DNA from: Buttiauxella izardii
GTDB lineage: Bacteria > Pseudomonadota > Gammaproteobacteria > Enterobacterales > Enterobacteriaceae
Reading direction: 5' to 3'
Assembly: GCF_003601925.1 (NCBI RefSeq)
Contig: NZ_QZWH01000024.1
Location: 1 to 59,038 of the forward strand
DNA length: 59,038 nucleotides
This document shows, one piece after another, positions 27,327 through 37,526 of the stretch (position 1 is its first letter; each line of letters starts with the position of its first letter). The notes beneath the pieces are model-generated. The model saw only the letters and a list, made by a program, of their open reading frames with translations, was not told the origin of the DNA and did not search any database. Made by a program: the position numbers and the translations under genes.

Positions 27327-27791
27327 TTACCGCTTCTTCTCTATCTTCCAGTTTCTGGGATCAATATTCTCACAGAGTTCTAAATCAGTAACATAATAAG
27401 CACCGAGCTTTTCCTGAGGGCAGTTGTGGTAAGGTGTAAACATCAGGCCGATGGGAATTAGGAATGCGATGATGAGTGATAAGAAAGTTGCAATGACACT
27501 AAAGCCGCTACACACCTTTCCAATAGAGGTTTGTTTTGTTGGTGGTTTAATTCCTTTGGTAAATAATACTCTAAGGGCAACGAATATAAGATAGATACAA
27601 AGAGGTATGGCGCCAACACAAGCGACGGCTTTAGCATGATAAATAATAATTTTATCATGTAATAACAATGAGCGGAGATCGTACAGTGGTACGGAAAATA
27701 ATATGAAATAGAGTAAAGTGAACATTAGTAGAATCATAATGACAGCCGCGCCACGGTATAGTAACCATTCTAAAATAATTTCTTTATTCAT
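27327..27791 (-). CDS. Small membrane protein, candidate immunity protein 2
   Basis: The protein has 154 residues with three hydrophobic segments (about 15-34, 55-76 and 92-118) and a short C-terminal part with the cysteine-bounded block NCPQEKLGAYYVTDLELC. It is a paralogue of the gene just upstream, sharing the layout, the TKG-PP--TSIG loop and the C-terminal block. I do not firmly recognise the family; it recalls DUF1240 membrane proteins. It begins 1 base after its paralogue ends and is the third gene of a low-GC trio. Given the colicin-like first gene, immunity to a pore-forming toxin is the best guess. Confidence 0.5.
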   Translation of the reverse strand: MNKEIILEWLLYRGAAVIMILLMFTLLYFILFSVPLYDLRSLLLHDKIIIYHAKAVACVGAIPLCIYLIFVALRVLFTKGIKPPTKQTSIGKVCSGFSVIATFLSLIIAFLIPIGLMFTPYHNCPQEKLGAYYVTDLELCENIDPRNWKIEKKR

Positions 27792-27792
27792 A

Positions 27793-28248
27793 TTATTCCA
27801 GGTTCCCGTTTTGAGGGTTGATATGTTCGCATAATTCTAAATTGATAACATAATATGAAGTGAGTCTTTCCTGAGGGCAGTTGCTATAGGATGAAAACAT
27901 TAATCCAATAGGGGTTAATATTGTTCCAACTACTCCTGCCATAGCTATGGCCATACTAATGCACCCCCAGATCAAACCAATAGATGTCAGTTTTTTAGGT
28001 GGTGTGGTTCCTTTCGTGATAAGCCCGCGGAAGGCGGAGAAAATAGCACAGGTGAAGATTGGAATACCACAAGCACACGCAATGCTTTGGCTGTAGATAT
28101 GTATTATATCTCCATGTTTGATTAAGGATTGTAGTTCATTAAATGTGCCGCCAAAAATTATTGCGTAAATAAAAAACATAAATATCATTATTGAGAAAAC
28201 ACAAGCGCCTTTATATATTACCCATTGTGAAGTGCTGTTTTTTTTCAT
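27793..28248 (-). CDS. Small membrane protein, candidate immunity protein 1
   Basis: The protein has 151 residues with three hydrophobic segments (about 15-35, 55-75 and 95-118) and a C-terminal block NCPQERLTSYYVINLELC that mirrors its downstream paralogue. Cysteine spacing is the same in both, so they arose by tandem duplication and then diverged. It starts 4 bases after the stop of the 290-residue gene, so the two are translationally coupled. Multi-helix inner-membrane proteins next to pore-forming colicins are typically their immunity proteins. No function is proven; DUF1240 membership is from memory. Confidence 0.5.
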   Translation of the reverse strand: MKKNSTSQWVIYKGACVFSIMIFMFFIYAIIFGGTFNELQSLIKHGDIIHIYSQSIACACGIPIFTCAIFSAFRGLITKGTTPPKKLTSIGLIWGCISMAIAMAGVVGTILTPIGLMFSSYSNCPQERLTSYYVINLELCEHINPQNGNLE

Positions 28249-28252
28249 GTGA

Positions 28253-29125
28253 TTAATCTGATGTATTGGCTAATAAGTTAAGAAATGTAGATGAATGCTT
28301 TTGATTCCACTCTTTCATGCGCTGTTCTTCTGCTAATGCAATCCGTAGTTTTACTTTTAAACTGGCAGACAAACCAAGTTTGTCATCTAAAACATTGAGT
28401 CCTTTATTCAGAGCTATCCCTGCAATGATAATAATTGCTGCCGTTAATGCTATTGGCGAACTAGCCAAAACAGCAATTCCACCCACAACCCCAATCGCAA
28501 CACTAGAAACAATAATTTTCGCCACATCCATCGTGACATCTACCAAAAAACCAACCAGGTCATAACCAGATTTAAATATCAGTTCAACGGCACGCCATGC
28601 GAGTGAGCAGCAAATACAAAATTTTGCACCTTTAACTATTGAGATACCAAGCCCGCGTATTCCAATACCCATTTCCAGTATTTGCGGGTTACGCAGACTA
28701 TATCGTGTACCATTAAGAATTCTACGCATGGCGGGATAACCGGTCAGCTTAATATAATCCTTTCCGCCCACGCTGCATTTTACCGCTCGCATACCCAATG
28801 ACTGAAATCGGATAATGAGTTTTCCAAATTCATTATGATAAGTCATCAATTTACCGATGGTTCTAAAACCATCCAGACCATCTTTAATGTTTCCGGGGCC
28901 AGCCCGATAAGAAAAGAAATGATCCATATTGCCAAGTAGTTCGTCCGTTATGCTCTGGGCTTCATCGAATGTTAGCAGCGTGATGTAATGATTTTCGGTG
29001 ATAAATGATTCATTCATCACAGCCATATCACGCAAAACGGGGTTCATACTGGGATATGAGCTAAAGGTGTGGTCGTCTCGTAAATAGTCTTTGGGCTTTT
29101 CCGAAGATGGACGGAGATATGACAT
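28253..29125 (-). CDS. Candidate pore-forming toxin/effector
   Basis: The protein has 290 residues and I do not recognise its family with confidence. The N-terminal 160 residues are soluble, with no signal peptide. Residues about 165-196 are moderately hydrophobic, and 203-239 form a strong hydrophobic hairpin (IGVVGGIAVLASSPIALTAA within it) followed by an amphipathic tail with LDDKLGLSASLKVKLR. A buried hydrophobic hairpin near the C-terminus is the hallmark of colicin-type pore formers and of several type VI and contact-dependent effectors. It is followed at once by two paralogous small membrane proteins. The trio is AT-rich compared with its neighbours, which suggests transfer. No VgrG, PAAR or secretion gene is in the window. 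Confidence 0.45.
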   Translation of the reverse strand: MSYLRPSSEKPKDYLRDDHTFSSYPSMNPVLRDMAVMNESFITENHYITLLTFDEAQSITDELLGNMDHFFSYRAGPGNIKDGLDGFRTIGKLMTYHNEFGKLIIRFQSLGMRAVKCSVGGKDYIKLTGYPAMRRILNGTRYSLRNPQILEMGIGIRGLGISIVKGAKFCICCSLAWRAVELIFKSGYDLVGFLVDVTMDVAKIIVSSVAIGVVGGIAVLASSPIALTAAIIIIAGIALNKGLNVLDDKLGLSASLKVKLRIALAEEQRMKEWNQKHSSTFLNLLANTSD

Positions 29126-29311: not shown

Positions 29312-30220
29312 CTAATTCCCCCCGCTCAATCTCGCCCTTACTGCCGGATGCAATAAGTAATCCATACACCAGCGGCTGACTTTTCCCATTCCGTCGGAAC
29401 GGGCGGCGAGAAATAGTTTGGTGGCGTGTTTATGTTCTTGCATTGGCTTTTTCAGTAATAAGCCGTTATTGAGCAGCGGCAAGGCTAAATGGTGCGGAAT
29501 ATATCCGATGCCAACGTTTTGCTGAATCAGCGCAATAGCGGTGGCGAAGTTCGGCACAAATAGTGGTTTTTGCCCTTCCAGCAGCCAGGCCTGTTGGGGC
29601 GCAAGATTGACCGTGGTATCACGAATACAGATTGCAGAAAAATGGCGCAGTTCGGCGTTTTCGAGTGGTTGTGAATGACTGGCGAGCGGGTGCTCGGGGC
29701 CGACGACAAAATCCCACTCCAGTTGGCCGATTGGCTCGCTGATGATTCCTTCGGTGCTCGGCACCGCGTGTGGCGCGCCAATCACCAGATCCGCCCGTTT
29801 GCTATAAAGCGCATCCCAACAACCGTTGTACACCTCGAGATTAATCGTCAGCGTCGTGGAGGAAAACTCGCGTTCAAAATCGCGGATAAATTCCACCAGC
29901 GTGGCGGTGGGAATAATATTGTTTACCGCAATAGTTAGCTCGCGCTCCACGCCGTCGTGAATCAATACGGTGTTGCGTTTTAGTGCGTCGAGGTCACCAA
30001 GAATCGTTTTGCTGTGTTCTATGAAGTAATTGCCAGCGGGTGTGAGTTCGATATAGCGGCCTTTGCGGATAAACAGCTCCGCGCCGATGCTTTCTTCCGC
30101 TTTTTTGATGGTGTAACTTATCGCCGACGGCACCTTGTTTAACTGCTCGGCAGCAGTGGTAATGCTCTGATATTTAGCAACAAGATGAACAATGCGGATG
30201 GTTTCGTCAGAGATAAACAT
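29312..30220 (-). CDS. LysR-type regulator, AllS-like
   Basis: The regulator has 302 residues. The N-terminal helix-turn-helix (about 18-37, SITTAAEQLNKVPSAISYTI) and the phrase DGVERELTIAVNNI are close in style to E. coli AllS, the activator of anaerobic allantoin use, and to related purine regulators. It is the last gene on the minus strand of the carbamoyl cluster, 68 bases after the permease, with a 9-bp inverted repeat in that gap. It probably controls the seven genes upstream in answer to a ureido compound or purine breakdown product. The ligand is unknown. Confidence 0.85.
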   Translation of the reverse strand: MFISDETIRIVHLVAKYQSITTAAEQLNKVPSAISYTIKKAEESIGAELFIRKGRYIELTPAGNYFIEHSKTILGDLDALKRNTVLIHDGVERELTIAVNNIIPTATLVEFIRDFEREFSSTTLTINLEVYNGCWDALYSKRADLVIGAPHAVPSTEGIISEPIGQLEWDFVVGPEHPLASHSQPLENAELRHFSAICIRDTTVNLAPQQAWLLEGQKPLFVPNFATAIALIQQNVGIGYIPHHLALPLLNNGLLLKKPMQEHKHATKLFLAARSDGMGKVSRWCMDYLLHPAVRARLSGGN

Positions 30221-30241
30221 AGAGTTCCCGGTCAGGCGTTA

Positions 30242-30272
30242 AGTGACCTGACTCGTTCTGAGCCAGGTCACT
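30242..30272. promoter_or_regulatory. Inverted repeat between permease and regulator
   Basis: AGTGACCTG and CAGGTCACT are perfect complements separated by 13 bases that can pair further (CTC/GAG). No T tract follows on the minus strand, so it is not a clear terminator. It may be an operator or mRNA-stabilising hairpin. A TATAAT on the minus strand lies next to it. Confidence 0.45.
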
Positions 30273-30288
30273 GTATTATACCCGGGAT

Positions 30289-31512
30289 TTACTTGTTGTT
30301 ACTCATCCGGCTTAACGCGGCATAAGCGATGCAGGCCACAAGAATGGAATCCAGAGACGGGATAGTGGTGAGTGTGAACAACCCTTTCACCGTCATAAAG
30401 CCCACTGCCGAACCGATAACCCAGGCGACAAACGTCAGCACTTTGATTTGTGGCTCGCGGGTTAACACGCTTTCCTCATAACCGTTACGGCGATAAAGGA
30501 AGAAATCGGCGATGTAAATCCCGGCAACGGGCGGAGTGGCAATCCCGAGGAACAGCAGGAATGGAATAAACCACGCCATGATATCCATGCTGCCGACAAT
30601 CGCCGCCAGCACACCAAGTGCGATGGTGATTTGCCATTTCGGGAAGCGGGTCAGCAGCGTGGAAACCACTAATGTCCCCTGGAACATGTTCCCGGCATTG
30701 CCGGTGACACAAGCAAAAATCAGCAGCAGCGCGCCTGGCAGAACCGCACCAAACACCGCCATCGCACCCAGCAACGAACCTTGCCCACTAATGGCGCTTG
30801 GCGTTGCACCCGCCCAATACAGCAGCGGATAAGCAATCAGGAATGTTAAACCTGCGGCAATTAACGCGTGTTTGCGGTTATGCACAAAGCTGCCGAAATC
30901 GGGCAGGGTGGCGACCAGCACGATAATCGTCCCTACGACGGTCGAAACCGCCACGCCGGTGTTCATGCTGATGATCGCCGCAGGGGCTGCGACTTCGGTA
31001 TGCGTTGCAACATACAGGATGTAGCAAAGCACCAGCGCAATCACTGGCACCGCGAACTGCGCCACTTTGCCCAACACCGCAAAACCAAACGCGGTCGAAG
31101 CGACAAAAATCACGCATCCCGCCGCCACCAGCAGTTGCACCGGTAGCTCCAGCCCATGCTGCGCCAGCAAATCATGCACCGAATGGCCGAACATGTTGGC
31201 GGTCACCGCAATCCAGCCGAACAAGCTAATCGCCATCAAAATGTTGATCGCAATCGCGCCTTGCTCGCCGAAAGCATATTTCACAATGCCGTAAGTCGGC
31301 ATCCGCGCTTTTTCGCCCACGCTAATGGTGATCGCCGAAAGGATGGCGAGAATTAACCCGCCGATAATCACCACGCTAATCAGCCCGGAACTGGAGAGCT
31401 GATTGCCGAGGCTTGATGATGAAAGCAGCACGGGCGTGACGGCAATACCAAGCAAAATCATGGCAATGCGCAAGCCTGATGCGGTTCCTGGACTTTCTTC
31501 TGTTTTACGCAT
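30289..31512 (-). CDS. NCS1-family permease, CodB-like
   Basis: The protein has 407 residues with about twelve transmembrane helices. The N-terminal region and ATLPDFGSFVHNRKHA loop resemble the cytosine permease CodB of the nucleobase:cation symporter-1 family, which also carries uracil, allantoin and hydantoins. Charged stretches such as GEKARMPTYGIVKYAFGEQG are typical. It lies 26 bases downstream of the allophanate-type domain gene and should import the substrate of this pathway. The substrate itself cannot be read from the sequence; a small planar ureido or ring compound is likely. Confidence 0.85.
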   Translation of the reverse strand: MRKTEESPGTASGLRIAMILLGIAVTPVLLSSSSLGNQLSSSGLISVVIIGGLILAILSAITISVGEKARMPTYGIVKYAFGEQGAIAINILMAISLFGWIAVTANMFGHSVHDLLAQHGLELPVQLLVAAGCVIFVASTAFGFAVLGKVAQFAVPVIALVLCYILYVATHTEVAAPAAIISMNTGVAVSTVVGTIIVLVATLPDFGSFVHNRKHALIAAGLTFLIAYPLLYWAGATPSAISGQGSLLGAMAVFGAVLPGALLLIFACVTGNAGNMFQGTLVVSTLLTRFPKWQITIALGVLAAIVGSMDIMAWFIPFLLFLGIATPPVAGIYIADFFLYRRNGYEESVLTREPQIKVLTFVAWVIGSAVGFMTVKGLFTLTTIPSLDSILVACIAYAALSRMSNNK

Positions 31513-31538
31513 GACGAACTCCTTTTACGTGAGACGAC

Positions 31539-31931
31539 TCAGGCAATATGAAAGTGGCCGGTATATTTGCGCCAGCTACCCATTTCGGTGATCTCTTTTT
31601 GGCCTTCGGTCAGCCACGGTTCCGCCAGCACGCCGAGCATTTCGCTGCCGTCGGCAAGTTTCACTTTGCCAATGCATAAGCCCGCAGGCTCGCTCAGTAA
31701 CAGCGCGGCAAAAGAGGCCATCGGCAATTCCCAGACTTCCAGCGCCACAGAGGTGCCGCCTTCGCTGACGCGAACCATGCCAGGATGTTTGTTGTTGATG
31801 CTCCAGATGCGGTAATGGGCGTCGGTGTAATCTTCGCGTACAAATACGCCGCCGACTTTAAGCATGTTGACGTTCAGTTCCAGGCCGCGCATTAAGGTGC
31901 CGTTCACGGCGACCAGAGTGGTATCAGTCAT
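31539..31931 (-). CDS. Free-standing allophanate hydrolase C-terminal domain
   Basis: The protein has 130 residues and resembles the C-terminal domain of allophanate hydrolases (AtzF, Dur1,2), which has a gamma-glutamylcyclotransferase-like fold. The matching features are the opening VAVNGTLMRGLELN, then YRIWSIN, PGMVRVSEGG, VALEVWELP and IGKVKLADGSEMLGVLAEP. In AtzF this domain is reported to decarboxylate N-carboxycarbamate, made by the amidase domain. Here no amidase domain is attached or nearby. It overlaps the carbamate kinase stop by 8 bases, so the two are made together. Assignment of the domain is from remembered sequence patterns. Confidence 0.75.
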   Translation of the reverse strand: MTDTTLVAVNGTLMRGLELNVNMLKVGGVFVREDYTDAHYRIWSINNKHPGMVRVSEGGTSVALEVWELPMASFAALLLSEPAGLCIGKVKLADGSEMLGVLAEPWLTEGQKEITEMGSWRKYTGHFHIA

Positions 31932-32907
31932 GATGTTCTTCCTTGTTAACAGAGGTAATCCAGGTGCCGTTCTGGTGATTTAACGCGGCTTTGATCGCCT
32001 GCGGGCTGGTAATTAAACCGCTGGCATTTTTGCCGCCGAGTTGGCTTGCGCTAACAAAATCGACAATCGCTTCGACTTTCGGCTGCATGCTGCCTGCGCC
32101 AAATTGCCCTTGCGCGATCAGCGCTTCGGCCTGCGGAAGGGAAAGCTCATCCAGCCAGCGTTGTTCAGGCGTGCCGAAATTAATCGCTACTTTATCCACG
32201 CCGGTTGGGATCAGCAGCAGATCGGCACCGAGCTGTTGCGCCAGCAAAGCAGACGCCAGATCTTTGTCGATCACCGCTTCCACGCCGTGCAATTGCTGCT
32301 GTGCGTCACGCACCACCGGGATACCGCCGCCACCGCAGGAGATCACGATGCAGCCCTGTTTCAATAACTGGGCGATGGTGTCGCGTTCGATGATTTCCAG
32401 CGGAGCAGGGGACGGCACGGTACGACGCCAGCCGCGACCCGCGTCTTCCATCATCGTCCAGCCGAGTTGCTGTTGACGCAGTTCGGCAGTTTGCAGATCG
32501 AAGAACGCGCCAATCGGTTTGCTCGGGTGGCTAAAGGCCGGATCGTCTTTACTGACCAGAGTTTGCGTCACCACGGTCACAATCGGTTTGCTGATGCCAC
32601 GGCGTTGCAGTTCGTTATGCAGCGCTTTCTGGAACATGTAACCAATCGCGCCCTGGGTATCGCCGACGGCGTAATCGAGCGGCACCGGGGACACTTCTTC
32701 TGCCGCCAGTTCGGAGCGGCGCAGAATAAAGCCGACCTGTGGGCCGTTGCCATGCGTCAGTACTAAATCCCAGCCCGCCTCAATCATTTCGGCGACATGC
32801 GTAACGGTTTCGACCACCGCCTGATACTGGTCAGGAATGCTGTTGTGTTGGTCATCCTGAATCAGCGCGTTACCACCAACGGCGACGACAGCTAAAGGTT
32901 TGCTCAT
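31924..32907 (-). CDS. Carbamate kinase (AllK/ArcC-type)
   Basis: The enzyme has 327 residues of the amino acid kinase fold. It has AVGGNALIQ at the N-terminus, LTHGNGPQVG, and ISCGGGGIPVV in the middle. The catabolic reaction makes ATP and carbamate from carbamoyl phosphate and ADP. I chose the ATG at 32907 (MSKPLAVVAVGGNAL, behind AGGAGA), which overlaps the DUF1116 stop as ATGA; a longer frame from 32964 has a cysteine/arginine-rich, unlikely start. In E. coli the allantoin cluster has an equivalent kinase, YbcF/AllK, and the yah cluster has YahI. It is the energy-conserving step here. Confidence 0.92.
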   Translation of the reverse strand: MSKPLAVVAVGGNALIQDDQHNSIPDQYQAVVETVTHVAEMIEAGWDLVLTHGNGPQVGFILRRSELAAEEVSPVPLDYAVGDTQGAIGYMFQKALHNELQRRGISKPIVTVVTQTLVSKDDPAFSHPSKPIGAFFDLQTAELRQQQLGWTMMEDAGRGWRRTVPSPAPLEIIERDTIAQLLKQGCIVISCGGGGIPVVRDAQQQLHGVEAVIDKDLASALLAQQLGADLLLIPTGVDKVAINFGTPEQRWLDELSLPQAEALIAQGQFGAGSMQPKVEAIVDFVSASQLGGKNASGLITSPQAIKAALNHQNGTWITSVNKEEHHD

Positions 32908-34325
32908 GCTGATTCTCCTGCGGCAACGGCTTGCGCCAGCGCCTGAATGGCATCGACAAAACATGACAGCGGAGCAGTAGTGATGCCCGCGCCAATTTGC
33001 CCAACGCCTGCCTGTTTGTGGGCGATGCCGGTATTGATGATCGGAAGGATGCTGCGGTCTGCGACTTTACGCGCGTCGATGCCTGCGGCAGTGGCCGCAA
33101 AATTCAATGCCGGAAGCGTGAATGCCTGGTTTGCGCCAATGGTAATGGCCTGCATACGGCGGCTGTTGTTGGTGGCATCGTCCGGCGTGCCGCCAACAAA
33201 TTTCACGATGGCCGGTGAAGAAGCCATCGCAAAGCCACCGACGCCTGCGGTTTCGGTAATCGCGCTGTCGCCCAGATCCGCAGCCGCATCGTCTACGCCA
33301 TAACCCGGGAAGAACAACCCTTCCACCGGATTGGCTGGAGCCTGGAACCACTGGTCGCCAAGGCCGGATAAACGAATGCCGAAGTTCACGCCGTTACGCG
33401 CCATCACCGTGACCATGGAGCTGAACGGTACATTGGCGGCGGCGTCCATCATCGACTTACAGGCGGTCATCGATAAGTTAAGGAAGAAGTGATCGTTACT
33501 GGTGATAAACGCCACCACGCGCTGGAGCTGATCGGGCGGCAAATTGCAGGCCAAAAGTGCCGGGAACAGGCGCTTGCAGAGCAGGCCAGTGGCGGCGGCA
33601 TTGCGGTTATGGACTTCATCACCCATATGCAGCGCTTGCGACATCAACGGTTTCAGTTCCAGCTCGCCGAGTTCACCAACGGCGGCTTTTAGCGCCGGGG
33701 CGAGTTCTTCGCGCATCCAGTGCAAACGTTGCAGAACTTCGTCGTTATTGGCGCCAAAGCGCAGAACCTTGCCCAAACCTTCGTTGAAGTTGCTGAATGC
33801 GCGTTGGCCGTTGGTTTTGTTTTCAATCACCCACAGCGGCATCGACGGGCTGATAATCCCCGCCATTGGGCCGACGGCGTGATAATGGTGGCAAGGTTCG
33901 AGGTCGACTTCGCCGTTATGAGCCATTAATTCAGCGGCTTCGTGCGTGGTCGCCCAGCCTTCGAAAAGAATGGCACCCACAATCGCCCCTTTCACCGGGC
34001 CGCACATATTTGCCCAGCTAATCGGTGGGCCAGAGTGCAGAATCAATTTGCGCTGCGCCATGGCTGGGATCGCTTCACGAGCTTCCATTACATCAACCAA
34101 AACGGGTTGAGCGCTGAGATAACGTTCAAAGGCGATTTGGTTGGCTTGTTCAACTAACGGATGGCGCAGCAGTGCGGCCAAATACAGACCCGCCTGAACA
34201 TCGCCTGCAGCGGGTGGCTGCCAGCTTAATGGCGTCACATCGCCACCGACCTGTTGCAAGTTACCGGCAAAACTTTGCAGCCCGACATTGACGACCTTCA
34301 AAGGCTGATTAAATAAGGTATTCAT
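32904..34325 (-). CDS. DUF1116 protein, AllG (YlbE)-like
   Basis: The protein has 473 residues of the DUF1116 family, to which E. coli YlbE (AllG) and YahG belong. Conserved blocks include HSGPPISWANMCGPVKGAI, HHYHAVGPMAGIISPSMPLW and ARNGVNFGIRLSGLG. In E. coli, AllF, AllG and AllH together have been reported as oxamate carbamoyltransferase, which splits oxalurate with phosphate to oxamate and carbamoyl phosphate. The gene overlaps fdrA-like upstream and carbamate kinase downstream by 4 bases each, a sign of stoichiometric assembly. The exact substrate here is open. Confidence 0.88.
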   Translation of the reverse strand: MNTLFNQPLKVVNVGLQSFAGNLQQVGGDVTPLSWQPPAAGDVQAGLYLAALLRHPLVEQANQIAFERYLSAQPVLVDVMEAREAIPAMAQRKLILHSGPPISWANMCGPVKGAIVGAILFEGWATTHEAAELMAHNGEVDLEPCHHYHAVGPMAGIISPSMPLWVIENKTNGQRAFSNFNEGLGKVLRFGANNDEVLQRLHWMREELAPALKAAVGELGELELKPLMSQALHMGDEVHNRNAAATGLLCKRLFPALLACNLPPDQLQRVVAFITSNDHFFLNLSMTACKSMMDAAANVPFSSMVTVMARNGVNFGIRLSGLGDQWFQAPANPVEGLFFPGYGVDDAAADLGDSAITETAGVGGFAMASSPAIVKFVGGTPDDATNNSRRMQAITIGANQAFTLPALNFAATAAGIDARKVADRSILPIINTGIAHKQAGVGQIGAGITTAPLSCFVDAIQALAQAVAAGESA

Positions 34326-35881
34326 GCGTTAGCTTCCTTCTTCTGCGCCTGGCTGTTTGCGACATGGCTTGCCCAAAGTGCGGCTTGAGCGTTGCAATCG
34401 GCGACGATAATTCCCGCATTGCGCAGCGCATTAATTTGTTGTGAGCGTTGTTGTGGATCGGCTTCAGTGCCGCAAACGTGCGCGATTAACAGCGGTGCGT
34501 GCTGTTTGTCGGTTTGTGAAAGCAGCTCAAGCAGTTCTGCTGCCGGTTCACTGGATGCGCCGTAACCCAGCACTAAATCGAACAGCACTACAGCAGTTTC
34601 AGCATCGGCGATTTCCGCCAGAATGCGCTGGTTACGCAGTGTAGGGTCGATCATCGGGTGCGGGCGGCCACGGGTGAAATCATCATCACCCATATCAATC
34701 AGCGTATGGCCCTGGCTTTTCCAGATGTCCGCGAGCTTGCTGTTGCCTGCCACTGGCGTGTTGGAGTACGCGGTGTGGCCTTGTTGCTGGCAAATCAACT
34801 GGCTTTCAAAACAGAAAGTGCCGCCAGCAAACACGCCGCGAATCGCGGTGCGTTTTGCATCCAGCATTTGAGAATGCTTGTTCAGCATGGCGACGTGTTG
34901 CGGGTCAAGATGCGCAACGGTTGTTGGAAGCGAGCGGTTTTTCAGCAAGGCGACGGCAATTTCTGCGGCATCTGCCAGAGTGCTGGCGGCGGTGACACCT
35001 GGGCGCGTGATTTCTTCAGCTTTAGCGCCGAGGAAATTCACTACCACCGGTTTGTTCGCGGCTTGCGCACATTTGAGAATTTGTTCCGCGACCGGGCGAG
35101 CTGGGGGTTTGGAAATTAAAACAATTACTTTGGTTTCAGGATCTTCAGCTAGCGCATTGAGGCCGAACAGCATTGAAATGCCGCCGATTTCTTCACTGAG
35201 ATCGTGCCCGCCGGTGCCCAACGCCTGGGAAATTCCCGCGCCCAACTGGTCGATACGACACGTCACTTCCTGCACGCCAGTGCCGGACGCGCCAACAATG
35301 CCAATCGCGCCACGCTGCACCACGTTAGCAAAACCCAACGGCATGCCGTTGATAATCGCGGTGCCGCAATCCGGCCCCATCACCATGCGGTTTTTTTGCT
35401 GCGCCAACAGCTTGATCTGCTTTTCCTGGGCGACGCTGACGTTATCGCTAAACATCATCACGTTCATGCCCAGTTGCAGCGCTTTGATGGCTTCAGCGGC
35501 GGCGTAATCGCCCGGTACAGAAATCAGTGCCAGATTGGCTTCGGGTTCTTTTTCCAGCGCCATTTCGATACTGACCAGATCAGGTGCGCGAACACCATTG
35601 TTGCTGCCTTCGTCTGGTTTGCTGTTCAGGCGCTGGTGCGCCAACTCAAGCGCCTGGTTGCAGGCGTCTTCTTCGCCCATCAAGGCGATAATCAGGTCGT
35701 TTGGCCCGGCGTTGAAATTCTCCCCTAAACCCGCGTCGTGAAGCTGCTCCAGATTCGTCGCAGTGCCCATCACCACCGAGGCCTGAACAATGCCCGGAAG
35801 CTTGCTGATTTGCGCCGAAATCTGCATCAGGGAAACGGAATCCTGATACAACCTGGCAAAAACTTTATGCATGATGCTCAT
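34322..35881 (-). CDS. FdrA/AllF-like acyl-CoA synthetase-fold protein
   Basis: The protein has 519 residues and is related to E. coli FdrA (AllF, 555) and YahF (515). It has a succinyl-CoA-synthetase-alpha-like Rossmann region: ANLALISVPGDYAA, MGPDCGTAIINGMPLGFANV and GIVGASGTGVQEVTC. The C-terminal half holds GDDDFTRGRPHPMIDPTLRN. It should form the core of a carbamoyltransferase with the DUF1116 and DUF2877 partners. The length is nearer to YahF, so it may belong to the Yah-type branch rather than the allantoin one. A 91-base gap with two hairpins separates it from the DUF2877 gene upstream. Confidence 0.88.
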   Translation of the reverse strand: MSIMHKVFARLYQDSVSLMQISAQISKLPGIVQASVVMGTATNLEQLHDAGLGENFNAGPNDLIIALMGEEDACNQALELAHQRLNSKPDEGSNNGVRAPDLVSIEMALEKEPEANLALISVPGDYAAAEAIKALQLGMNVMMFSDNVSVAQEKQIKLLAQQKNRMVMGPDCGTAIINGMPLGFANVVQRGAIGIVGASGTGVQEVTCRIDQLGAGISQALGTGGHDLSEEIGGISMLFGLNALAEDPETKVIVLISKPPARPVAEQILKCAQAANKPVVVNFLGAKAEEITRPGVTAASTLADAAEIAVALLKNRSLPTTVAHLDPQHVAMLNKHSQMLDAKRTAIRGVFAGGTFCFESQLICQQQGHTAYSNTPVAGNSKLADIWKSQGHTLIDMGDDDFTRGRPHPMIDPTLRNQRILAEIADAETAVVLFDLVLGYGASSEPAAELLELLSQTDKQHAPLLIAHVCGTEADPQQRSQQINALRNAGIIVADCNAQAALWASHVANSQAQKKEANA

Positions 35882-35972
35882 GTTTTAATACCTGTGTTTA
35901 ACCGCCTGAAGGTGAATTCAGGCAAAGCGTTGCCGCACCGATTGAGCGGTGTCTTTCGATTGCGGTAAGAAT

Positions 35973-36854
35973 TTAAAGTGTGGCTTTTAGCGTTCGCAGC
36001 CCATGTAGCAACCCGGCCAGGCAATCCACGCCAGATGAACTGCCAAACTGCATAACGCCAAGCGCTGCCGTGCGAATTTGCGTTGTTTGGGCGTTGCTGT
36101 AGAGCAACTGAATAAGCTGGTAAATCGGTTCGGAGAAATGCCCTTCCAGCCCGCGAGTCACGTAATGGCGGCTAATGTCATTAGTGCGTGAAAGCAGCGG
36201 CGGGACTGCGTTTTGCAGGTTTTCCCAATGTAACGCGATGCCTTCTACTTCTCGCCATGACCAAAGTGCCGCCAGATAACCCAGCAAATAATCATCACCG
36301 TCGGGCGTTAAGCCGTGCCCAAAACCGATAATTTTTGCCAGTTGTGCGTCCATCATTTCGCGGCTGTCGTTCGCCGTCAGATTCACCGCCAGACCTTGCG
36401 GGCACTCTTGCGGCAAGAGCTGCAACACGCTGTTGATGTGCTGTTGCTGGCAATAATGGCGCAACTGTTGAGTCAGGGTTTGGTAGTGAGTCAGCGCGCC
36501 AGGCAAGCCTTGTTTAACTTGTGCTATCATTGGCCACTCAGGCTGCCATTGCGCGCTGCCTCGCAAACTGATGCTCAAGCGTTGCGTGGTAAGAATTCCG
36601 TCACGCCAGATGAACGGCTCGTTGGGGCGGGTTTGTAGACGCCAGTCCCAACCGGGCGGCAAATCGACGCGTATCGCATCCGGTAGTTGCTGGTACTTTA
36701 TGGCACACAGCAACGTCAGCAATTCGCCGTCTTCCGCCACCATATTCAGCGCCGATTCAAAGGCGCTATGCAGGCGAAGCGAAACCTGTTTTTGAGCTAA
36801 CCGGCTGGCAGCCAGATAGCCCATCGAGATCACAGGAAGCGCGACGGCGACCAT
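35973..36854 (-). CDS. DUF2877 protein, AllH (YlbF)-like
   Basis: The protein has 293 residues of the DUF2877 family, with E. coli YlbF (AllH) and YahE as relatives. The signature GFGHGLTPDGDDYLLGYLAAL lies near residue 180, and the C-terminus has FGSSSGVDCLAGLLHGL. It is the third partner of the FdrA/DUF1116 carbamoyltransferase. The start ATG lies 6 bases after the hydrolase stop without a strong ribosome-binding site, so it is probably translated by coupling. N-terminal hydrophobic residues 1-14 look like protein core rather than a signal peptide. Confidence 0.85.
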   Translation of the reverse strand: MVAVALPVISMGYLAASRLAQKQVSLRLHSAFESALNMVAEDGELLTLLCAIKYQQLPDAIRVDLPPGWDWRLQTRPNEPFIWRDGILTTQRLSISLRGSAQWQPEWPMIAQVKQGLPGALTHYQTLTQQLRHYCQQQHINSVLQLLPQECPQGLAVNLTANDSREMMDAQLAKIIGFGHGLTPDGDDYLLGYLAALWSWREVEGIALHWENLQNAVPPLLSRTNDISRHYVTRGLEGHFSEPIYQLIQLLYSNAQTTQIRTAALGVMQFGSSSGVDCLAGLLHGLRTLKATL

Positions 36855-36860
36855 CGTGAC

Positions 36861-37526
36861 TTAGCCTTTCAGCCCGGAAATAATCGCGTTGGCATCGCTC
36901 ACCCAGCCAAAAATCGCGCCCTGAGCTTTAATCATTTCCAGCGCGTACTTCTGGAATTCCGGGAAGTACGAGCCAACGCAATCTTCAGGAATAATGCATT
37001 CAAAGCCACGGTCGTTGGCTTCACGCACCGTAGTGGTCACGCAAACTTCGGTGGTTACGCCGCAAACAATCAGCGTTTTAATGCCGCTATTTTGCAAAAT
37101 CAAATGCAGGTCAGTTTGGTAGAAAGCCCCTTTGCCGGGCTTATCAATCACCGGCTCGCCAGCGATTGGGTACAGTTCAGGAATGATGTCGTGACCGGCT
37201 TCGCCGCGAATCAGCGTGCGACCCATCGGGCCGTTTTCACCGATAAAAGTCATGCCGCCGCGAGTCAGTTTGGCAGGTGGGCAATCAGTGAGATCCGGGC
37301 GATGGCCTTCGCGGGTGTGAATCACCATCAAACCTTTTTGACGTGCCACATCAAGCACGCGTTTACACGGCTCGATAGCGCTACGCACCAGGGAAACATC
37401 GTTACCCAGCGCTTCGCCAAAACCACCGGCTTCGACAAAATCGCGCTGCATATCGATCATGACCAGCGCGGTGGTTTTAGGATCAAACGGCAGAGAAAAA
37501 GGTTGGGCTTCAAAAGCGTGGGTCAT
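36861..37526 (-). CDS. Isochorismatase-like cysteine hydrolase, BiuH-like candidate
   Basis: The enzyme has 221 residues of the isochorismatase-like superfamily. The catalytic triad is Asp25 (VMIDMQRDF), Lys129 (IDKPGKGAF) and Cys162 (GVTTEVCVTT). Family members cut amides and ureido groups: biuret hydrolase, triuret hydrolase, RutB, N-carbamoylsarcosine amidase. Gln202 in IKAQGAIFGW lies 40 residues after the Cys. As I recall, biuret hydrolase has its substrate-binding Gln215 40 residues after Cys175. The ATG at 37526 has a strong AGGAG site; an upstream extension to 37625 is not family-like. It is the first gene of the minus-strand operon. Confidence 0.82.
   Translation of the reverse strand: MTHAFEAQPFSLPFDPKTTALVMIDMQRDFVEAGGFGEALGNDVSLVRSAIEPCKRVLDVARQKGLMVIHTREGHRPDLTDCPPAKLTRGGMTFIGENGPMGRTLIRGEAGHDIIPELYPIAGEPVIDKPGKGAFYQTDLHLILQNSGIKTLIVCGVTTEVCVTTTVREANDRGFECIIPEDCVGSYFPEFQKYALEMIKAQGAIFGWVSDANAIISGLKG

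Follow-up and report, generated by a model that had tools for sequence, protein, structure and literature searches.

A Predicted Triuret Catabolic Operon in Buttiauxella izardii Combining a TrtA-Type Hydrolase with an AllF-AllG-AllH Carbamoyltransferase

Introduction

Triuret arises as a by-product from uric acid and from urea fertilizer. The closest described system for its degradation is the TrtA-TrtB-BiuH-AtzF pathway of Herbaspirillum, whose first enzyme, TrtA, has been shown to convert triuret to carboxybiuret (PMC7948467). Here we analyze a cluster of eight genes in a stretch of DNA of 59,038 nucleotides (the window), which corresponds to an entire contig (NZ_QZWH01000024.1) of the 4.77-Mb genome of Buttiauxella izardii (GCF_003601925.1). 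The cluster resembles the Herbaspirillum pathway by its first enzyme, by the predicted substrate of that enzyme, and by the residues specific to TrtA. Unlike that pathway, it includes neither BiuH nor AtzF but a carbamoyltransferase, a carbamate kinase, and a free AH_C domain, with the predicted synthesis of one ATP and with urea left as a product.

The carbamoyltransferase is related to AllF, AllG, and AllH of E. coli, which are encoded together with a carbamate kinase by allFGHK and form an oxamic transcarbamylase (PMC11326118). The three subunits, the kinase, and the conserved charged residues are common to both systems; the window genes differ by their order (H-F-G-K), by an AllG belonging to another clade, by Ala at AllG position 288 (Tyr in K-12), and by TrtA and AH_C partners in place of allantoin genes. 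The yahDEFGHIJ genes of K-12 and their counterpart in the genome of B. izardii likewise form orphan AllFGH-type sets with a carbamate kinase, but in these sets the partner is a YahJ-type amidohydrolase, TrtA and AH_C are absent from the stretch, and the AllG proteins fall outside the clade of the window. As for the AH_C domain of allophanate hydrolase (AtzF), it decarboxylates N-carboxycarbamate. The N and C domains of that enzyme catalyze sequential reactions (PMC5770610). The window AH_C protein belongs to the same family (PF21986) as the C-terminal domain of AtzF but stands without an amidase domain and displays a VNGTLM motif and a Glu residue in an EP-GL motif.

The E. coli genomic island GR 29, located between metE and ysgA, carries this operon at an identical site; there, it is presented as uncharacterized and read as a Rut-like system for the use of pyrimidines (PMC12928451). 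In comammox genomes, trtA, biuH, and atzF were found beside allFGHK and read as separate triuret and oxalurate pathways, and biuH was found with allFGHK in archaea (PMC12625717). In the open-license literature searched, we found no paper describing a single pathway that leads from triuret to carbamoyl phosphate; the parts of the cluster belong to known families, and their combination and two of the reactions considered below are not described in that literature. We propose that the cluster is, on balance, probably a catabolic operon for triuret via carbamoyl phosphate. This proposal retains, as the best reading, the notion that a ureide is degraded via carbamoyl phosphate with a gain of ATP, which had been put forward in a first inspection of the window (the original prediction).

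Results

As originally predicted, the cluster comprises eight intact genes on the minus strand, between positions 29312 and 37526, which are the following in the order of transcription.

36861..37526, minus strand, TrtA-type isochorismatase-like hydrolase, predicted triuret hydrolase of 221 residues (PDB matches and residues, see below)
35973..36854, minus strand, AllH (DUF2877) carbamoyltransferase subunit (PF11392, 79 bits)
34322..35881, minus strand, AllF (FdrA) subunit (PRK06091, 493 bits for a cut-off of 433; FdrA structure, PDB 3dmy)
32904..34325, minus strand, AllG (DUF1116) subunit (PF06545, 323 bits; TrtA-linked AllG clade)
31924..32907, minus strand, carbamate kinase of 327 residues (TIGR00746 arcC, 369.7 bits for a cut-off of 358.25)
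31539..31931, minus strand, lone AH_C protein of 130 residues (PF21986, 138 bits; PDB 5c5z, 236 bits)
30289..31512, minus strand, NCS1-family permease, predicted to mediate ureide uptake (PF02133, 45 bits; the closest NCBIfam model is cytosine permease, with 140 bits, under the cut-off of 326)
29312..30220, minus strand, LysR-type regulator, PunR/AllS-like (PunR, 280 bits for a cut-off of 345; AllS model NF007501, 222 bits for a cut-off of 372)

The three AllFGH subunit families (PF06545, PF11392, and the FdrA model) are thus all present in the window. The genes had been described as mostly overlapping by 4 to 8 bases, but overlaps occur only at three of the seven junctions, namely, AllF/AllG (4 bases), AllG/carbamate kinase (4 bases, ATGA, with the kinase start at 32907), and carbamate kinase/AH_C (8 bases), the remaining four being gaps of 6, 91, 26, and 68 bases. 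The designation of the regulator as AllS-like holds loosely, since AllS comes behind PunR and neither score reaches its cut-off.

Comparison of the hydrolase with known structures gave TrtA as the best PDB match (6xix and 6xj4, 265 and 261 bits), followed by BiuH (6azo, 237 bits) and RutB (94 bits), and the score obtained with the BiuH model NF050097 (274 bits) fell short of the cut-off (370). The alignment indicated that the Cys-Asp-Lys triad (D24, K129, and C162) and the substrate residues (E72, K132, and Q202) are kept, the roles of these residues being those assigned in PMC7948467. Mutational work described in the same report distinguished TrtA from BiuH by six residues, F35, N41, A134, E160, Y187, and I205, all of which are present in the window hydrolase and in 12 aligned relatives from the module formed by TrtA, the AllFGH-type carbamoyltransferase, carbamate kinase, and AH_C. 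The BiuH letters (Y, Y, S, D, T, and V) are absent from the window hydrolase at these positions and are found, entirely or nearly so, in 22 BiuH-type relatives. Among 42 hydrolases encoded near AllF or AllG, which include one duplicate contig, F35, N41, E160, Y187, and I205 are kept in 41, the other one being gapped at two positions; A134 is replaced by Ser in 8 of the 42, a substitution that was not harmful in the TrtA mutants (PMC7948467). TrtA-type hydrolases occurring without AllFG display identical letters, indicating that the letters reveal the type of enzyme rather than linkage to AllFG. The window hydrolase looks like the triuret type and not the biuret type, and, since it has the TrtA letter at every discriminating position, its product should be carboxybiuret. 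This result does not fit the conversion of biuret to allophanate, which had been proposed for the hydrolase, and makes it unlikely that allophanate is the main carbamoyl donor.

Comparison of gene neighborhoods, which had been suggested along with the original prediction, connected the AllG subunit to TrtA. In a tree of 80 AllG proteins (L022 and L013 being left out), the window AllG belongs to a clade of 37 rows with a support of 99/94, consisting of 35 TrtA-linked rows plus L106 and L107. E. coli AllG, YahG, and the second AllG of the window's genome, which belongs to a yah-like set on contig C14, are located outside that clade, in agreement with the view that the cluster does not serve simple allantoin use. 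Five additional TrtA-linked AllG proteins are found elsewhere in the tree, of which L028 is firmly grouped with YahG. The label of TrtA linkage requires six changes on the tree, four of which are forced by well-supported branches and two of which may be accounted for by L106 and L107, indicating that the coupling of TrtA to AllG was gained or lost more than once. AllG position 288, two residues from the invariant K290, is occupied by Ala in 36 of 37 TrtA-linked rows (Ser in the remaining one); 14 of the 16 other rows have either Met, as YahG does, or Tyr, as K-12 AllG does. No charged residue conserved in more than 80% of 16 AllG or 10 AllF proteins of other kinds was swapped for another residue fixed in more than 90% of the TrtA-linked AllG or AllF proteins, a comparison that misses residues that merely became variable and in which K-12 AllG/AllF are the only members of the comparison group with a known substrate.

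The search for lone AH_C proteins in 394 genomes of the order of B. izardii led to matches in 54 genomes. Twelve of these, including the genome of the window, encode a short AH_C protein (57 to 100% identity), and the rest encode only full-length allophanate hydrolases (≤41%); both forms were found in four genomes of the order, again including that of the window. The short AH_C gene adjoins those of the hydrolase, AllF, and AllG in 12 of 12 genomes, two of which lack carbamate kinase in the cluster, indicating that the gene set is not a chance assembly. Extension to 369 genomes of the class revealed no further close short AH_C, only distant ones (≤45%). Of seven regions compared around other short AH_C matches in this class sample, one (L099) is the module, three (L101, L102, and L103) have AH_C beside the amidase parts of allophanate hydrolase, two (L104 and L105) contain distant relatives in other settings, and one (L100) contains no core gene.

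Loci were also collected with a hydrolase alignment in one genome per species, retaining the best 80 of 575 relatives. A search seeded with AllG rather than TrtA, performed in 385 genomes of the class of L035, gave 52 matches in 37 genomes, and 45 of these regions were compared (one region already included and five fragments were left out). Six of the 45 contained an AllG of the window type (at least 585 bits to the window AllG), associated with TrtA in four regions, with AH_C in one, and only with AtzF in one; TrtA was present in none of the other 39. Pooling of the data, after dropping L001 and L002 (sub-stretches) and L025 (contig of L012), resulted in 62 AllG loci above 350 bits, including 42 with TrtA within 10 kb. 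E. coli is represented twice among these 42 loci (L003 and L022), and L012, L013, and L014 are near relatives. The module is spread over several phyla.

The eight genes are present in identical order in E. coli BL21(DE3), between ysgA and metE, which is the site of the window operon. The pair formed by the hydrolase and AllH was detected in 1,546 of 5,426 complete E. coli genomes (~28%), with at least 80% of the query covered, and the DNA of the other six genes was detected in 1,544 complete E. coli genomes. In a plasmid collection, the hydrolase was 80 to 90% identical in 83 of 515 matching records. The E. coli plasmid pACN001-B, which is predicted to be conjugative, carries the eight genes in the same order, AH_C being annotated there as hypothetical and judged by place and length only.

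The window AH_C protein matches PF21986 only, without an N-terminal amidase domain, and is related to the solved structure 5c5z, which we take to be that of c4763. This protein was read as acting in urea breakdown, as cited in PMC7558591. Among the 42 loci combining TrtA and AllG, 31 contain an AH_C gene, 4 a carbamate kinase-AH_C fusion, 5 a full AtzF, and 2 neither, with no locus containing both. In the fusions, found twice in Mycobacterium and once each in Hyphomicrobiales and Rhodobacterales, AH_C is located at the end of the kinase, and both domains were confirmed by Pfam. AH_C directly adjoins TrtA in eight loci, and Pfam identified AH_C and the isochorismatase domain in a single frame in L078, a single metagenome-assembled genome in which a missed stop codon is possible. 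An AH_C domain, whether free, fused, or within allophanate hydrolase, is encoded by 17 of the 19 genomes tested that harbor AllFG loci of the window kind, the two exceptions being a metagenome-assembled genome and a genome with AllG on a contig of 6 kb. This conservation argues against the small domain being dispensable, an outcome that would have spoken against the original prediction. A full allophanate hydrolase was above the cut-off in 9 of 30 module genomes only, indicating that the module needs none.

The partners of TrtA differ according to the presence of AllG. The 55 TrtA loci without AllG contain AH_C in 2 cases, BiuH in 19, AtzF in 11, and an AtzH-like gene in 13, versus BiuH in 3 and an AtzH-like gene in none of the 42 loci with AllG. 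Fisher values for such contrasts take no account of how closely the loci are related and serve as a rough indication. The AtzH-like family is taken here as TrtB-like, following PMC12625717, and AtzH itself was assigned to dicarboxyurea (PMC6219798). AH_C occurs with TrtA and BiuH in the absence of AllG in L067, and with BiuH and AllG in L059 and L064, whose genomes contain no allophanate hydrolase above the cut-off. The VNGTLM motif and the Glu residue of EP-GL in the AH_C proteins of the module were not found in 18 aligned AtzF C domains. Some of the module AH_C proteins also score as gamma-glutamyl-cyclotransferase-like.

Two clusters (L035 and L037) end with a gene for a PF03253 urea transporter that overlaps the frame of the carbamate kinase-AH_C fusion. 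Such a transporter is present in only 4 of 25 module genomes, and the location of two of the four within the cluster is unlikely to be due to chance. Urease was considered as a required partner and rejected, since its presence above the cut-off in 2 of 12 and 17 of 25 carrier genomes (L030 being left out) follows no rule. The window's genome has no urease; a different contig of it encodes urea carboxylase together with AtzF. No urease match was obtained in the genomes of E. coli E69, Edwardsiella, and Aeromonas, suggesting that urea would be excreted by these bacteria.

Ordinary use of allantoin was set aside on context: there is no allantoin gene among the eight genes, and allantoinase, the only allantoin gene searched genome-wide, had no match above the curated cut-off, the best match being dihydropyrimidinase. 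Cyanuric acid hydrolase (PF09663), a candidate feeder of carboxybiuret, was detected in 8 of 31 genomes, on a contig differing from that of the module in 6 of the 8 (L039 and L045 were not placed).

Discussion

Together, these results suggest the following pathway. The NCS1 permease would import the ureide, and the TrtA-type hydrolase, judging from its residues, would convert triuret to carboxybiuret and ammonia. AllF-AllG-AllH would then transfer the terminal carbamoyl of carboxybiuret to phosphate, leading to carbamoyl phosphate and allophanate. Carboxybiuret corresponds to oxalurate plus one NH, so this step would be the known oxamic transcarbamylase reaction acting on a longer substrate. 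Carbamate kinase would, by its family function, convert carbamoyl phosphate to ATP, ammonia, and CO2, and the small AH_C protein would decarboxylate allophanate to urea, a full allophanate hydrolase being used instead by some relatives. Urea would be exported or used elsewhere. The net reaction would be: triuret + ADP + inorganic phosphate → urea + 2 NH3 + 2 CO2 + ATP. Whether this AllFGH clade is an unrecognized carbamoyltransferase phosphorolyzing carboxybiuret (or biuret), with free AH_C as a separate decarboxylase and ATP gained from triuret, is a more specific claim, predicted from sequence comparisons, that we hold to be evenly balanced.

The same pathway could operate in another order, in which AH_C would act as a carboxybiuret decarboxylase standing in for TrtB and turn carboxybiuret into biuret, and AllFGH would then split biuret with phosphate into carbamoyl phosphate and urea, leaving the net reaction unchanged. 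The location of AH_C next to TrtA, once in frame, and the absence of an AtzH-like gene from the loci combining TrtA and AllG argue for action of AH_C before phosphorolysis, and so do the gene content of L067 and the urea transporters of two clusters. The half-life of carboxybiuret, ~20 min according to PMC7948467, implies that an enzyme would help. The alternative order leaves unexplained the replacement of AH_C by a full allophanate hydrolase in five loci (four without BiuH) and the fusion of AH_C to carbamate kinase, and biuret has no carboxylate, yet the conserved charged residues of AllG and AllF show no fixed replacement. Taken by itself, this order is less likely than not, and it accounts for the smaller share of the probability given to the pathway as a whole. 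Action of AH_C after phosphorolysis is slightly preferred, because AtzF, which replaces AH_C in five loci, consumes allophanate, because the fusion joins the enzymes that would remove both products of a reversible transfer, and because carboxybiuret retains the carboxylate.

Several observations weigh against triuret catabolism through carbamoyl phosphate or against its preferred order. The TrtA specificity of the hydrolase is predicted from residues, and transfer of a carbamoyl by AllFGH from carboxybiuret or biuret was not found described in the literature searched. Ala at AllG position 288 also occurs in more distant AllG proteins without an assigned role. Carbamate kinase is not encoded within 10 kb in 5 of the 42 loci, and urease is no constant partner. 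In L106 (6453-10355), the genes for AllF, AllG, and carbamate kinase of the TrtA-linked clade are accompanied by that for a full AtzF, and TrtA is absent from the 17.5 kb covered. The loci combining TrtA and AllG are related and partly redundant. Because TrtA-type hydrolases were the starting point of the locus scan, avoidance of BiuH by AllFGH cannot be deduced from it, and archaeal contigs with biuH, often with allFGHK and without a collocated atzF, have been reported (PMC12625717). The adjacency of AH_C and TrtA in eight loci and their joint frame in L078 fit action of AH_C before phosphorolysis better.

The cluster could also be a second oxalurate system, in which oxalurate would be the only substrate of AllFGH and the hydrolase would process either oxamate or a precursor of oxalurate. 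The activity established for the E. coli enzyme (PMC11326118) and the conserved charged residues shared with it are consistent with this view, as is the reading of the comammox allFGHK genes adjacent to trtA in PMC12625717. We nonetheless find an oxalurate system unlikely, since the genome contains no allantoinase above the cut-off, the AH_C, AtzF, and urea transporter partners would have no role, the AllG clade is apart from E. coli AllG, and the coupling to TrtA recurs.

According to the idea of the original prediction, biuret would be hydrolyzed to allophanate, which AllFGH would convert to carbamoyl phosphate and carbamate. The hydrolase falls within the TrtA/BiuH branch, AH_C is by family a relative of allophanate hydrolase, and the gene content of L059 and L064, together with the archaeal contigs mentioned above, agrees with such a route. 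The triuret letters of the window hydrolase, the presence of BiuH beside AllG in just 3 of the 42 loci of the TrtA-seeded scan, and the fact that AtzF, where present, would hydrolyze the proposed substrate make this scheme quite improbable. A Rut-like route for acquiring pyrimidine nitrogen was suggested for the E. coli copy by the authors of PMC12928451, who call the hydrolase RutB-like. Although the permease is nearest to cytosine permease, this reading is highly improbable, since the score of the hydrolase against TrtA greatly exceeds that against RutB and no RutA-like gene is present among the eight.

The presence of triuret in human urine has been reported, and peroxynitrite generates it from uric acid (PMC7948467), suggesting that enteric bacteria living in birds and mammals could encounter this compound. 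If triuret catabolism through carbamoyl phosphate is correct, urease-negative enterics would carry an ATP-yielding route for a urate-derived compound, a capacity that the literature searched does not attribute to them, and triuret would be used with conservation of energy and without the need for BiuH or AtzF. A function would be provided for an operon carried by ~28% of the complete E. coli genomes, BL21(DE3) included, and by some E. coli plasmids, as well as a role for the solved structure 5c5z. The AllFGH type of transcarbamylase would gain a second reaction, which would offer a reason for the proximity of allFGHK and trtA in the genomes of comammox and other organisms.

The operon is flanked by a dienelactone-hydrolase gene, beyond which lies presumably udp (named from its translation), and, on the other side, by three small genes, beyond which lies a gene that we take, from its translation, to be metE. 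The three small genes, located on the minus strand at 27327-29125 between metE and the LysR gene, include two adjacent paralogues (42% identity), one of which matches DUF1240, and the gene for a 290-residue protein with no family above the cut-off. Scanning for promoters and terminators gave 6 and 12 sites, respectively, a number matched by shuffled sequence.

The second AllFGHK set of the window's genome (L004, contig C14, 4453-12388) is yah-like: a YahJ-like amidohydrolase is encoded there, and its AllG is closest to E. coli YahG. The set also contains a relative of a protein of ~525 residues, read as a membrane protein, that follows TrtA in many loci (for example, L048:10710-12302 and L016:9856-11433). 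No Pfam or NCBIfam match was obtained for the copies of this protein that were tried, and it is perhaps a member of an undescribed family of ureide permeases. Finally, a small protein, judged from its sequence to be cupin-like, is encoded near BiuH in three loci containing both TrtA and BiuH, at the following positions.

L038:12852-13355, cupin-like protein
L040:13207-13623, cupin-like protein
L088:3286-3795, cupin-like protein

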